DNA of 64,000 nt from Methanocaldococcus villosus KIN24-T80 (GTDB lineage: Archaea; AGJL01; Methanococci; Methanococcales; Methanocaldococcaceae): assembly GCF_000371805.1 (NCBI RefSeq), contig NZ_AQUK01000001.1:880268-944267 (forward strand), in the 5' to 3' direction. Position numbers and translations under genes: made by a program. The notes under the pieces were generated by a model. It ran no database searches, was not told where the DNA came from, and saw nothing but the letters and a program-made list of their open reading frames with translations. Positions 12,143 to 57,700 of this stretch are shown piece after piece; the stretch's first letter is position 1; every line of letters begins with the position of its first letter.

Positions 12143-12396
12143 TTTTTTATCCTTGTTTTAATGGATGAGCGATTCAAACACCTTGAATACTTGCTTGACA
12201 TGGTTAGATATGCTGTTTCCATCCTTGTTTTAATGGATAAGCGATTCAAACCTGGCCATTGATGACATTGACACTTACGTCGATGGTTTCCATCCTTGTT
12301 TTAATGGATGAGCGATTCAAACATTACAAAATTATGTATATTGTGAAGATATTGATGATGTTTCCATCCTTGTTTTAATGGATAAGCGATTCAAAC
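12143..12396 (-). CRISPR. CRISPR array: four 37-nt repeats, three spacers (35, 34 and 37 nt)
   Basis: Repeats lie at 12143-12179, 12215-12251, 12286-12322 and 12360-12396. In the direction of transcription (minus) the repeat starts GTTTGAATCGC and ends AAGGATGGAAAC; the GGAAAC end is the usual 3' end of archaeal repeats. One internal base varies (TCAT or TTAT in GC-TCATCC / GC-TTATCC). The leftmost repeat has three changes at its outer end, as expected for the leader-distal terminal repeat. Orientation is supported by the long leader on the right. No cas gene is in the window, so processing and interference must be supplied from elsewhere. Confidence 0.95.
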
Positions 12397-53602: not shown

Positions 53603-54095
53603 TTTAGCTATATATAGAGCTTTAAAAGATAGTGGAATAAAGTTTATATGCTCAGTACCATGTGCAAATTTAAAGAATCTTTTGAAGCTTGTAGATGAGG
53701 ATGAATATTTCTTACATGTTCCAGCAACCAGAGAAGAAGAAGCTTTTGGGATTTGTGCAGGAGCTCACATGGCAGGAAAAAAGACTGCTATATTAATGCA
53801 GAATTCTGGATTGGGGAATAGTATAAATGCAATTGCTTCTTTATATAAAATATATCAAATCCCTACATTATTAATTATAAGCCATAGGGGAGAACTAAAA
53901 GAAAAAATACCTGCTCAAATCCCTATGGGAAGATGGGTTACAAAGTTATTAGATGTCTGTGAGATACCATATTATAAACCAAAAACTCCAGAAAAAGCAT
54001 ATAAAATTATAAAATATGCTTCTGAATATATGGAAAAAATATCATACCCAGTAGCTGTTTTATTTGATGCTTTATATTGGGAGTGGGATTATTAA
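53592..54095 (+). CDS. comD: Sulfopyruvate decarboxylase, alpha subunit
   Basis: ComD, with ComE, decarboxylates sulfopyruvate to sulfoacetaldehyde in coenzyme M synthesis. The 167 residues form the PYR half of a thiamine-diphosphate enzyme: CSVPCANLKNLLKL (near 18), PATREEEAFGICAGAHMAGK with the cofactor-activating Glu (near 48) and MQNSGLGNSINAIASL. ATG 53592 aligns with MJ0256; TTG 53586 is less likely. ComE is not in the window. The stop overlaps the convergent methyltransferase by 4 nt. Confidence 0.88.
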   Translation: MKGSLAIYRALKDSGIKFICSVPCANLKNLLKLVDEDEYFLHVPATREEEAFGICAGAHMAGKKTAILMQNSGLGNSINAIASLYKIYQIPTLLIISHRGELKEKIPAQIPMGRWVTKLLDVCEIPYYKPKTPEKAYKIIKYASEYMEKISYPVAVLFDALYWEWDY

Positions 54096-55048
54096 TGCTT
54101 TTTAAATATTAATGTTATTTCATTTTTTGTATTAGCTTTTAGTTTCACTACCTTAAAAAGTTCTAAATCTTTTGCTAAATTAATAACCTCATTTATATCA
54201 TTTTTTATATTCTCTTTACATGATTTTACAGTTTGTATTATATAACCTCCACTCTTTAAATTCTTTAAAAACTTTAAAGTGAGAATCATAGATTCTTTGG
54301 GATATAGGTTGGTGTCATTTGTTATTAAATCAACTTCTTCATCAATATTAACATTTTCAGCTTTTTCTTTTATATGGATAATATTATCAGCTTTCACCTT
54401 TAAATCGGCTCTATCTATAGCATAGACCTTCTTAGCTCTTTTTGAGAGAACCTTTACCCACCCTCCAGGAGCAGATCCAATATCTAAAACCGTATTCAGA
54501 TTCTCAAAAATAAAAGGAAATTTCTCCATAAGTTCAGACATTTTCCTTTCTGATCTATTTAATGGTCTCTCCTTATATCTATTTATTTTTTCTAACTTTT
54601 CAATGTTCTTTTTAAAAACAATCTCTTTAAAGTTTTTATCAAAAATAGATACATAAACTTTATCTTGTAATATTTCTATGTTAATTTTAAAATCATAATT
54701 TTTTAAATCAACCTTTAAGTTGAAATTATCAACAATCTCTTTTCCTAAAAATTTTTCAAGTTCCTCACTAGTAAATTTATGTCTTCCTCTCCTATTTACT
54801 CTAACTACAAATTTTCCTTTTAAATTTTTCTCTTTTATTAAATTAAAAATAGTTTCTTTTAAATTTTCTAAGCTACAGGCTCTTTCAATAGGAATAGCTT
54901 TAAAAATATAGTTAATATTAAAATCTTTAAGATCATCTTCCAATAATAAAATTCCTCTAAATATTGTATATCTTACTCTATAACCTCTCTTTTTTAGCTC
55001 TTTCATTAAATATGGCTCAAATCCAGGTTTTGTTGTTATAAGCATCAT
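54092..55048 (-). CDS. THUMP-domain FtsJ-like RNA methyltransferase
   Basis: The 318-residue protein has an N-terminal THUMP/ferredoxin-like region (TTKPGFEPYLMKELKKRGYR, about 5-24; VVRVNRRGRHKFTSEELEKF near 82-100) and a C-terminal RrmJ/FtsJ Rossmann domain with motif I VLDIGSAPGGWVKVL (about 185-199). The domain also has DLITNDTN in the catalytic Asp region and SGGYIIQTVKSCKEN, giving the K-D-K type set. It should 2'-O-methylate rRNA or tRNA; the target is unknown. It overlaps cofD by 4 nt. Confidence 0.8.
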   Translation of the reverse strand: MMLITTKPGFEPYLMKELKKRGYRVRYTIFRGILLLEDDLKDFNINYIFKAIPIERACSLENLKETIFNLIKEKNLKGKFVVRVNRRGRHKFTSEELEKFLGKEIVDNFNLKVDLKNYDFKINIEILQDKVYVSIFDKNFKEIVFKKNIEKLEKINRYKERPLNRSERKMSELMEKFPFIFENLNTVLDIGSAPGGWVKVLSKRAKKVYAIDRADLKVKADNIIHIKEKAENVNIDEEVDLITNDTNLYPKESMILTLKFLKNLKSGGYIIQTVKSCKENIKNDINEVINLAKDLELFKVVKLKANTKNEITLIFKKH

Positions 55049-55968
55049 ACTAACTCCAATATTTCCTTAGCTAATCTTAATTTATCTTCTAAAGTTCTCA
55101 TTATTATATTTGTTGTTATTACCTCACAATCAAAGTCTTTGGCTTTATCTTTGTCACTTATATCTATAATCAAAATATCTACAAGATCTTTATAAAACTC
55201 ATAAATTCCATATATAGATGAATCATAACCTTTAGCTCTCATAAGTTTTCCTGCAGGTCCAGATATAGGAGAATTTCCTACTATTGGAGAAACTACAATA
55301 GTCTTCTTTTTACTTATACCTTCTCTTATCTCATCAAAAGCTAATATAGGCCCTATAGATGTTATAGGATTTGAAGGGCCTATAATTATAGCCTTACTTT
55401 TTTCTATTGCCCTTAAAGCTTTTTCGCATGGTTTGGCATAAGTGATGTTTTCATAAATTACATCTATAACATCTACATTTCCTTTTCTTTTTACCCAAAA
55501 ATCATGAAATTTTAATAAATCCAGCTTACCATTTAATTTGGTTAATATCTTAGTTTCTACTCTATCATCACTCATAGGAAGTACTTTAGCTTTTATGTTA
55601 AACAGTTCTCTTTCCATATCTATAATTTCACACAACTTATATCCTTTCTTTAAATAATAAGCTTTATGCATTTTTAAAGCTCTATCTTTATCTCCAATTC
55701 TTAAAAGCTCATCTATTCCAAAGGCTTTTAAAGTTTCATGTGTGGTGAATGTATCATCTCTCCTACCATACCATACATCCTCATTTATCAAATCAGCTAA
55801 TGTGTAGAGAACAGTATCAACATCTGGAGAAACATACAAATCATTAATCCAAGTGTCTTCAGCAGTATTAACAATAATATTTAATTCTTCACTTAAAAAT
55901 CTTTTTAAACCTTGTAAAAGCTTAGGAGTCCCAGTACCACCAGATAGAACTGTTAAGATAATAATCAC
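55045..55968 (-). CDS. cofD: 2-phospho-L-lactate transferase CofD
   Basis: CofD joins the lactyl-phosphate moiety to Fo, making F420-0. The 307 residues have VLSGGTGTPKLLQGLKRF (about 7-24), NTAEDTWINDLYVSPDVDTV (about 35-54), DDTFTTHETL and GPSNPITSIGPILA (near 198). Homologues start close to the LSGG motif. No ATG/GTG/TTG lies at the right distance after AGGTGAT; the GTG within that site (55968) or an ATT/ATC a few codons later must serve. It is paired with cofA at 6584 in the same pathway. Confidence 0.92.
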   Translation of the reverse strand: MIIILTVLSGGTGTPKLLQGLKRFLSEELNIIVNTAEDTWINDLYVSPDVDTVLYTLADLINEDVWYGRRDDTFTTHETLKAFGIDELLRIGDKDRALKMHKAYYLKKGYKLCEIIDMERELFNIKAKVLPMSDDRVETKILTKLNGKLDLLKFHDFWVKRKGNVDVIDVIYENITYAKPCEKALRAIEKSKAIIIGPSNPITSIGPILAFDEIREGISKKKTIVVSPIVGNSPISGPAGKLMRAKGYDSSIYGIYEFYKDLVDILIIDISDKDKAKDFDCEVITTNIIMRTLEDKLRLAKEILELV

Positions 55969-55988: not shown

Positions 55989-56044
55989 GGCTCAGCCGCG
56001 GGAGTAGTCATCATCATTCAGATAGCGAAATTCTCATCATCGCC
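55989..56044 (-). ncRNA. C/D box sRNA overlapping the sufB stop codon
   Basis: Read on the minus strand, it has terminal GGC/GCC pairing, C box AUGAUGA (56040-56034), a 12-nt guide, D' box CUGA (56021-56018), C' box AUGAUGA (56014-56008), a second 12-nt guide and D box CUGA (55995-55992). The 56-nt length, symmetric guides and short D'-C' spacing are canonical for archaea. The sufB stop UGA is part of the D' box. The D' guide GAAUUUCGCUAU fits the universal 23S rRNA segment UAGCGAAAUUC. The D guide CUACUCCCGCGG fits, with about two mismatches by memory, a site just upstream in the same rRNA region. Confidence 0.88.
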
Positions 56045-56977
56045 TATCATACCTTTAATTATAACTTCTGTAGCCTCTTCTTCATCTAATCCCTTAGCCA
56101 TTAATGTTTCCAACTGTTTCTTATCAACACTACCTATAGCTGCTTCATGAGTAATCCTTGCTTTTTCATCTCTAACTAAAACAATAGGAATAGATTCTAC
56201 TTCAGCCTTATCTTTTATAATTTCAGCACAGTCTATATGTCCTTTACAATATGGGGCATTACCTTCTATTTTAAACTTTAAAGTTATTTTTGAATTATCT
56301 TTACCTGCTCCCCTACCTCTTATCATACATTTGGCATTTTCTCCATTTAATCTAACAATCTCATCTACATTTACTTTATCATCTTTAATAGCATAAGTTT
56401 TAGTTATTATATCAATTAATGCCTCTTTATCAGCTTCTATCTCTTGATGTATATCTAAAATTCCTATTCTACCTTTTGTAAGGTTAAATTCAGAAATATA
56501 AACCCCTCTTTCACCTATATTAACTTTCATAGTGGGTTTAACTAATATATCCCCCTCTTCCCCATGGTAGTGTGTCTCTTTATATATAAATTTAGCATTT
56601 TTGCCTATTTTTATATTTCCATTCATTATATGCTTTAACTTCTTACCCTTTGGAAATGAGCAATGAGATAATAACATGATCTCAGAATCATCTTCTAAAA
56701 TAATTTCTACATCAATTATTTGAGATACGTTATCTTCTGTTATCCCTGTACACATATGTATTGGTTCTTTAAACTTATATCCTTTTTTAACAATTATTTT
56801 TGCTAATATCTTTCCATCTTCCTCTTTACCCTCTATTTTTATACCTTCAGTTTCTTTAATATCTAATATTTTACCTTCTTTAATTATTATTCTTGCTCCT
56901 TTACCATGCACAATTTCTTCTGGATTTTTCATAGTATATTTTAAAAACTCAATATCTCTTAATATTTCTTCTTTCAT
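56018..56977 (-). CDS. sufB: SufB/SufD-family Fe-S scaffold protein (minimal SUF/SMS system)
   Basis: The 319-residue protein belongs to the archaeal short SufB group (MJ0034). With SufC it forms the two-component Fe-S assembly system of methanogens. The central right-handed beta-helix region is visible as alternating hydrophobic strands with KGKKLKHIMNGNIKIGKNAK and YHGEEGDILVKP. The C-terminal helical part has RITHEAAIGSVDKKQLETLM, matching the family. Its last four codons and stop lie in the C/D sRNA at 55989-56044. It lies 6 nt after sufC. Confidence 0.88.
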   Translation of the reverse strand: MKEEILRDIEFLKYTMKNPEEIVHGKGARIIIKEGKILDIKETEGIKIEGKEEDGKILAKIIVKKGYKFKEPIHMCTGITEDNVSQIIDVEIILEDDSEIMLLSHCSFPKGKKLKHIMNGNIKIGKNAKFIYKETHYHGEEGDILVKPTMKVNIGERGVYISEFNLTKGRIGILDIHQEIEADKEALIDIITKTYAIKDDKVNVDEIVRLNGENAKCMIRGRGAGKDNSKITLKFKIEGNAPYCKGHIDCAEIIKDKAEVESIPIVLVRDEKARITHEAAIGSVDKKQLETLMAKGLDEEEATEVIIKGMIGDDENFAI

Positions 56978-56983
56978 CTTTAA

Positions 56984-57700
56984 TCACCTGAATTTACACT
57001 TTCCACATCTTCTTCTATAAAATTCAGATACCTTTTTTGGATCTCCTGTAAGAATCACTTCTCCATTACATATTAGAGATGTTCTATCTGCATTTTTTGC
57101 CATCTCTTCTCTATGAGTTATGACCAATAAAGAACATCCCTGCTCTTTCAGATATTCAAAAACATTAAGTATTTCGTCAATAGACACCATATCTATTCCA
57201 CTGTCAGGCTCATCCAATATTGCCAAATCTGGCTCCATACATATAATTGATGCCAACTCTATTCTCTTTCTTTCTCCACCACTTAGTGAGTCATCAACAA
57301 ACCTTTCCATATATTTATTACATTTCAAACCTACTAAATCCAAAGCCTCTCTTATTTTATCTTCAGGATTATTTAGATATTTTTTATTCATTCCTATTTT
57401 AAGATATTTCTTAACTGTGATTCCTTCAAATCTAGCAGGCTCTTGCCAGGCTAATGTTAATCCCATCCTTGCCCTTTCATAAATAGGCTTATTTGTTATA
57501 TCTACATTTTTAAATACAATCTTACCCTTATATGGCTCATATCCTGAAACTCCCATTAGTGTATATGCCAAACTACTCTTTCCAGCACCATTTGGGCCAA
57601 TAATGGCATGAATCTCATTTTCATTAACTTCTAAATTAACACCATTTAAAATTTGTCTGTTTCCTTTTTTTAGATATAACTCTTCAACTTTCAATAACAT
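56984..57700 (-). CDS. sufC: SufC-family ATPase of the Fe-S assembly system
   Basis: The 238-residue ABC-type ATPase drives conformational change of SufB. Walker [10 protein letters not shown] (near 34), the Q-loop [11 protein letters not shown], signature [13 protein letters not shown] (near 144) and Walker [14 protein letters not shown] are typical SufC. The C terminus has extra Cys residues ([10 protein letters not shown]) that may touch a cluster. It is first in sufC-sufB and matches MJ0035; divergent from rpsO. Confidence 0.92.

Follow-up and report, generated by a model that had tools for sequence, protein, structure and literature searches.

In Methanocaldococcus villosus, the stop codon of a sufB-like gene lies inside a C/D box guide sRNA, which raises the question of whether this overlap couples Fe-S assembly to ribosome modification or is a by-product of how the two genes came to lie together. 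The locus was analysed in a window of 64,000 nucleotides of the M. villosus KIN24-T80 genome, the window being the whole stretch of DNA, and all positions below refer to it. The sRNA gene is composed of the following parts:

55989-56044, minus strand: sR39-type C/D box guide sRNA gene with terminal stem (Rfam RF01122 match at 55990-56044)
56044-56042, minus strand: 5' arm of the stem, GGC (from the sequence)
56034-56040, minus strand: C box AUGAUGA (from the sequence), invariant in the genus alignment
56022-56033, minus strand: D' guide GAAUUUCGCUAU, 12 nt (from the sequence and its 23S rRNA pairing)
56018-56021, minus strand: D' box CUGA, whose UGA (56020-56018) also serves the sufB-like ORF as its stop codon
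56017-56015, minus strand: loop of 3 nt between D' and C' (from the sequence)
56008-56014, minus strand: C' box AUGAUGA (from the sequence), conserved in the genus
55996-56007, minus strand: D guide CUACUCCCGCGG, 12 nt (from the sequence and the 23S rRNA pairing of its core)
55992-55995, minus strand: D box CUGA (from the sequence), invariant in the genus
55991-55989, minus strand: 3' arm of the stem, GCC (from the sequence)

An Rfam search of the window matched the sR39 family (RF01122) at 66.7 bits, with an E-value of 4.9e-14 over 64 kb and a match covering model positions 1-56 of 56; the curated gathering cut-off of this family is 50 bits. The consensus motifs RUGAUGA (C and C') and CUGA (D and D') were exact in all four boxes, which stand in the order C-D'-C'-D. 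The terminal stem pairs GGC with GCC and contains one further A-U pair, giving a 4-bp stem by script, and a kink-turn with a 3-nt bulge and tandem G-A pairs was read off the sequence, not off a structure. Both 12-nt guides lie upstream of D or D' and are complementary to rRNA, the D guide through its core. When the C/D'/C' pattern was read backwards, zero matches were found in the whole M. villosus genome. A chance pattern is thus contradicted by the score and E-value of the RF01122 match, by the absence of backward matches in this genome, and by the conservation in the genus described below. The segment 55989-56044 is a genuine archaeal C/D box sRNA of the sR39 family. It has the same boxes and the same guide cores as RF01122 and matches the family over its full length, and the M. 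villosus copy differs in its genomic position only, its 5' half overlapping the 3' end of a protein-coding gene. Other snoRNA families returned by a loose-threshold Rfam search all scored below RF01122 and mostly reflected a generic C/D resemblance.

The genes that surround the sRNA are as follows:

56984-57700, minus strand: SufC-like ATPase, part of this gene string and upstream of sufB (TIGR01978, 178.9 bits, below the cut-off of 212.8)
56018-56977, minus strand: SufBD-core protein (sufB-like), 319 aa (Pfam PF01458)
55045-55968, minus strand: cofD, 2-phospho-L-lactate transferase (TIGR01819, 407 bits)

The 56018-56977 protein scored 62.6 bits against the SufB model TIGR01980 (cut-off 346.4 bits) and 87.6 bits against the SmsB model NF052511 (cut-off 650 bits). 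Because it reached neither of these cut-offs and matched only the SufBD core of PF01458, "SufBD-family protein" is the safe name for this product; its gene is written sufB below for brevity. The sufB ORF ends with ...GMIGDDENFAI, and its UGA coincides with that of the D' box, so that an upstream ORF on the same strand stops inside a box motif. The sRNA supplies the codons of the seven C-terminal residues, DDENFAI, which lie outside the SufBD core match at residues 81-309 of 319. On the other side, the listed GTG start of cofD lies 20 nt past the sRNA stem. The original prediction had described a C/D box sRNA with four boxes, two 12-nt guides and terminal pairing, a D' box holding the sufB UGA, an sRNA first half encoding the last SufB residues, and sufC, sufB and cofD running in one direction. 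This description was borne out in each point, with exact coordinates, and the sRNA lies on the same strand between sufB and cofD. The gene string that holds the guide sRNA also includes an ORF at 54092-55048 (minus strand), which overlaps the cofD end by 4 nt at its start and encodes a THUMP and FtsJ-like methyltransferase, a candidate stand-alone RNA 2'-O-methyltransferase. Elsewhere in the window, three CRISPR direct repeats (Rfam type CRISPR-DR7) were located at 12215-12396 (minus strand).

To describe the distribution of the sRNA, 14 genomes of the genus, M. villosus included, were compared, the relatives being labelled G001, G003, G004 and so on. sR39 was present in 14/14 of the genomes searched, and the alignment showed boxes and guide cores that were invariant or nearly so in every one of them. 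The Rfam control search was positive in M. jannaschii. A pattern scan of named genomes also revealed sR39 in Thermococcus and in Thermococcales MAGs, where the gene neighbourhood is different. When the sRNA model was searched in the sister family within the same order, it gave only weak partial matches and no convincing homologue; therefore, no sR39 homologue is claimed there. Most of this family holds only a ~30% identical homologue of the sufB-like protein, in a longer frame of about 410-440 aa. Pattern matches in several bacteria and in one Crenarchaeota MAG lack the remaining boxes at the proper positions and look like chance.

The two guides fit neighbouring sites in the 23S rRNA of M. 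villosus itself. The D' guide GAAUUUCGCUAU pairs with GUAGCGAAAUUC through 12 contiguous pairs, 11 Watson-Crick and one G-U, and none of 300 shuffled D' guides reached this pairing score in 16S plus 23S rRNA. Through its core UACUCCCGC, the D guide forms 9 pairs with GCGGGGGUA, which lies 28 nt upstream of the D' target; the second guide position counted from box D is mismatched. Of 20,000 shuffled D cores, 396 (~2%) likewise had a full match in the target vicinity. The D-core variants of three lineages (UACUCCCGC, UACCCCCGC and UACCCUCGC) each form 9 pairs with the unchanged GCGGGGGUA, with the G-U pair moved or lost. The D guide also matched elsewhere in 23S rRNA, but these sites were set aside, as the full 9-nt core was paired only at GCGGGGGUA. 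By counting five nucleotides from the box and numbering from an E. coli 23S gene, the predicted modifications are Cm at E. coli C1934 for the D' guide and Gm at E. coli G1906 for the D guide. Together with L7Ae, Nop5 and fibrillarin, the sRNA would direct 2'-O-methylation at these two positions, which flank helix 69. Archaeal 2'-O-methylation hotspots include helices 68, 69 and 71, and both targets of a single sRNA often lie <100 nt apart (PMC4644070).

The overlap with sufB has a far narrower distribution than the sRNA. Among the SufB-like orthologues compared, comprising those of the 13 other genus genomes and the two nearest outer ones, the ending GMIGDDENFAI was found only in M. villosus. 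All 15 close orthologues end with GMIGDL, GMIGE, GMIGEI or GMLGED on a TAA or TAG of their own. In five relatives (G004, G007, G008, G012 and G013) the sRNA shares the strand of sufB and lies 8-28 nt past its stop, and G001 has an ORF of about 280 aa between the two. The remaining genus genomes have the sRNA elsewhere, and its proximity to sufB is confined to about half of the genus; in G003, which has the nearest SufB relative (79%), the sRNA is not beside sufB. Where the sRNA is elsewhere, the gene often convergent with it appears to encode thiol:fumarate reductase subunit A.

Comparison of the junctions suggests how the fusion arose. In three relatives, ATGATA is followed by 20-23 nt starting with GGGGAT or GGTGAT and then by GGCGATGATGA, and in M. 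villosus ATGATA is joined straight to GGCGATGATGA. A deletion of 20-23 nt at the GGNGAT microhomology would explain the fusion. Such a short deletion would have taken out the old sufB stop and the spacer before the sRNA, and the sufB frame would then read into the sRNA and halt at the UGA on which the D' box depends. Because G003 lacks an sRNA beside sufB, we infer the ancestral adjacency, and hence a deletion and not an insertion, from the other relatives. An insertion would mean that the sRNA behaved as a mobile C/D cassette and that a copy of it, placed in the 3' end of sufB, replaced the old stop, with no deletion involved. The variable positions of sR39 across the genus, the mobility of C/D sRNAs discussed for Nanoarchaeum (PMC3491384) and the fusion of sR39 to another gene in G009 all speak for this course. 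However, we consider it unlikely, since the sRNA follows sufB by 8-28 nt on the same strand in five relatives and a simple deletion turns three of those five arrangements into the M. villosus junction. The fusion was seen in a single genome, as would be expected of an assembly or sequencing artefact, but this is hardly credible given that the sRNA is intact, as are the genes on either side, that the frame is open across the junction, and that a second locus of the same genome (L018, below) shows a like merging.

Inspection by eye in M. villosus (TTATAATTAA) and several relatives placed T/A-rich stretches only about 8-20 nt ahead of the sRNA, too near for a transcript that begins at the 5' end of the sRNA itself. 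An archaeal TATA element with the right spacing, about 26 nt, was not noticed in this inspection. Archaeal C/D sRNAs mostly have no promoter of their own and are released from longer transcripts, and their maturation survives changes to the flanking sequence (PMC7994747). As sufC, sufB, the sRNA and cofD are co-directional, with 20 nt from the sRNA stem to the cofD start, processing from a common transcript is likely, and excision of the sRNA from a sufB-cofD transcript is plausible. The sRNA would probably be co-transcribed with sufC-sufB(-cofD) and then trimmed out or protected by sRNP assembly.

Further cases of a stop codon inside a box were identified. In G009 (L014:1501-1527), the same sR39 overlaps the end of a 4-phosphopantoate--beta-alanine ligase family protein that is unrelated to SufB; this protein ends with LGDDENFAI, its stop is again the D' UGA, and its orthologues in two genus relatives have different ends on TAA. 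In M. villosus itself, the C-box UGA of L018 (G000:C1:58942-58973, plus strand) is the stop of an upstream open frame of 333 aa ending ...CGEKIDIITR, and in G007 the counterpart of this host gene stops on a TAA of its own, which precedes the sRNA by about 12 nt. The sufB overlap and L018 are alike in being M. villosus C/D sRNAs whose box UGA stops an upstream ORF, but L018 uses the C box and has other guides and another host gene. In G003, two C/D sRNA candidates (L138 and L154) likewise have a C-box UGA that is the stop of the upstream ORF. In a strict and incomplete sample from five genomes, the upstream stop fell inside a box in roughly 4 of about 40 credible C/D candidates, a rate that is rough because the simple filter applied also drops genuine-looking candidates (such as L158, L161 and L168). 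This filter required a D box and a terminal stem, and it removed L025 and some pattern matches in other genomes. According to Tripp et al. 2017, as cited in PMC7994747, about 25% of archaeal C/D genes overlap the 3' end of an upstream gene whose stop codon falls inside the sRNA; the C box holds the stop in almost half of the cases and any of the four boxes may do so (PMC7994747), and in Nanoarchaeum C/D sRNAs mostly overlap mRNAs (PMC3491384). The M. villosus locus resembles the published 3'-overlapping C/D sRNAs (PMC7994747) in its stop within a conserved box, in having no separate promoter apparent by eye and in its probable processing from a longer transcript, and it differs from almost half of them in that the sufB stop sits in D' and not in the C box. 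It is a real sRNA with a real overlap, in an arrangement of an already documented kind.

The original prediction had gone further and proposed that the overlap links Fe-S assembly to ribosome modification, with loss of the boxes in relatives counting against it. The boxes are conserved in 14/14 genomes; what is not conserved is the overlap, which is absent from the 13 other genus genomes and from the two nearest outer orthologues. Under such coupling, assembly of L7Ae, Nop5 and fibrillarin or excision of the sRNA would truncate or stabilise the sufB mRNA. The overlap does place the stop codon and the C/D kink-turn in one RNA, so that one molecule cannot be both a full sufB mRNA and a mature sRNA, and L7Ae binding to mRNAs can regulate archaeal translation (PMC5539422). 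Nevertheless, the main expectation of coupling is that the overlap be conserved, and this fails: the overlap is confined to one genome, the sRNA is near sufB in only part of the genus and has other neighbours in Thermococcales, and G009 has the same overlap with an unrelated gene. Furthermore, in the reporter tests of Tripp et al. 2017, as cited in PMC7994747, the effect of 3' overlaps was neutral or slightly negative. The proposed link is therefore not supported, and regulatory coupling of this type appears quite improbable. Slighter still is the chance that ribosomes completing SufB face competition from sRNPs assembling on the suf RNA as it is made, in which case translation of the last codons would set the release of sR39 and thus the methylation flanking 23S helix 69. 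An ordinary sR39 guide, a deletion-made fusion to sufB, a likely shared transcript and a neutral overlap very probably account for the locus. The overlap itself is probably neutral, and most likely came about as a by-product of tight gene packing, not as a regulatory link.

This corrects an over-reading of the locus, since the overlap tells little about a shared function of the sRNA and sufB. Because each box must keep its UGA, an ORF that has lost its own stop and enters a C/D sRNA from upstream ends at one box or another in any frame; read off the sequence of sR39, frame 1 stops at D', frame 2 at C' and frame 3 at C. The M. villosus locus is a clean example of stop codon migration into C/D boxes, and together with G009 it shows the identical tail GDDENFAI put on two unrelated proteins, in two species, by the same sRNA.
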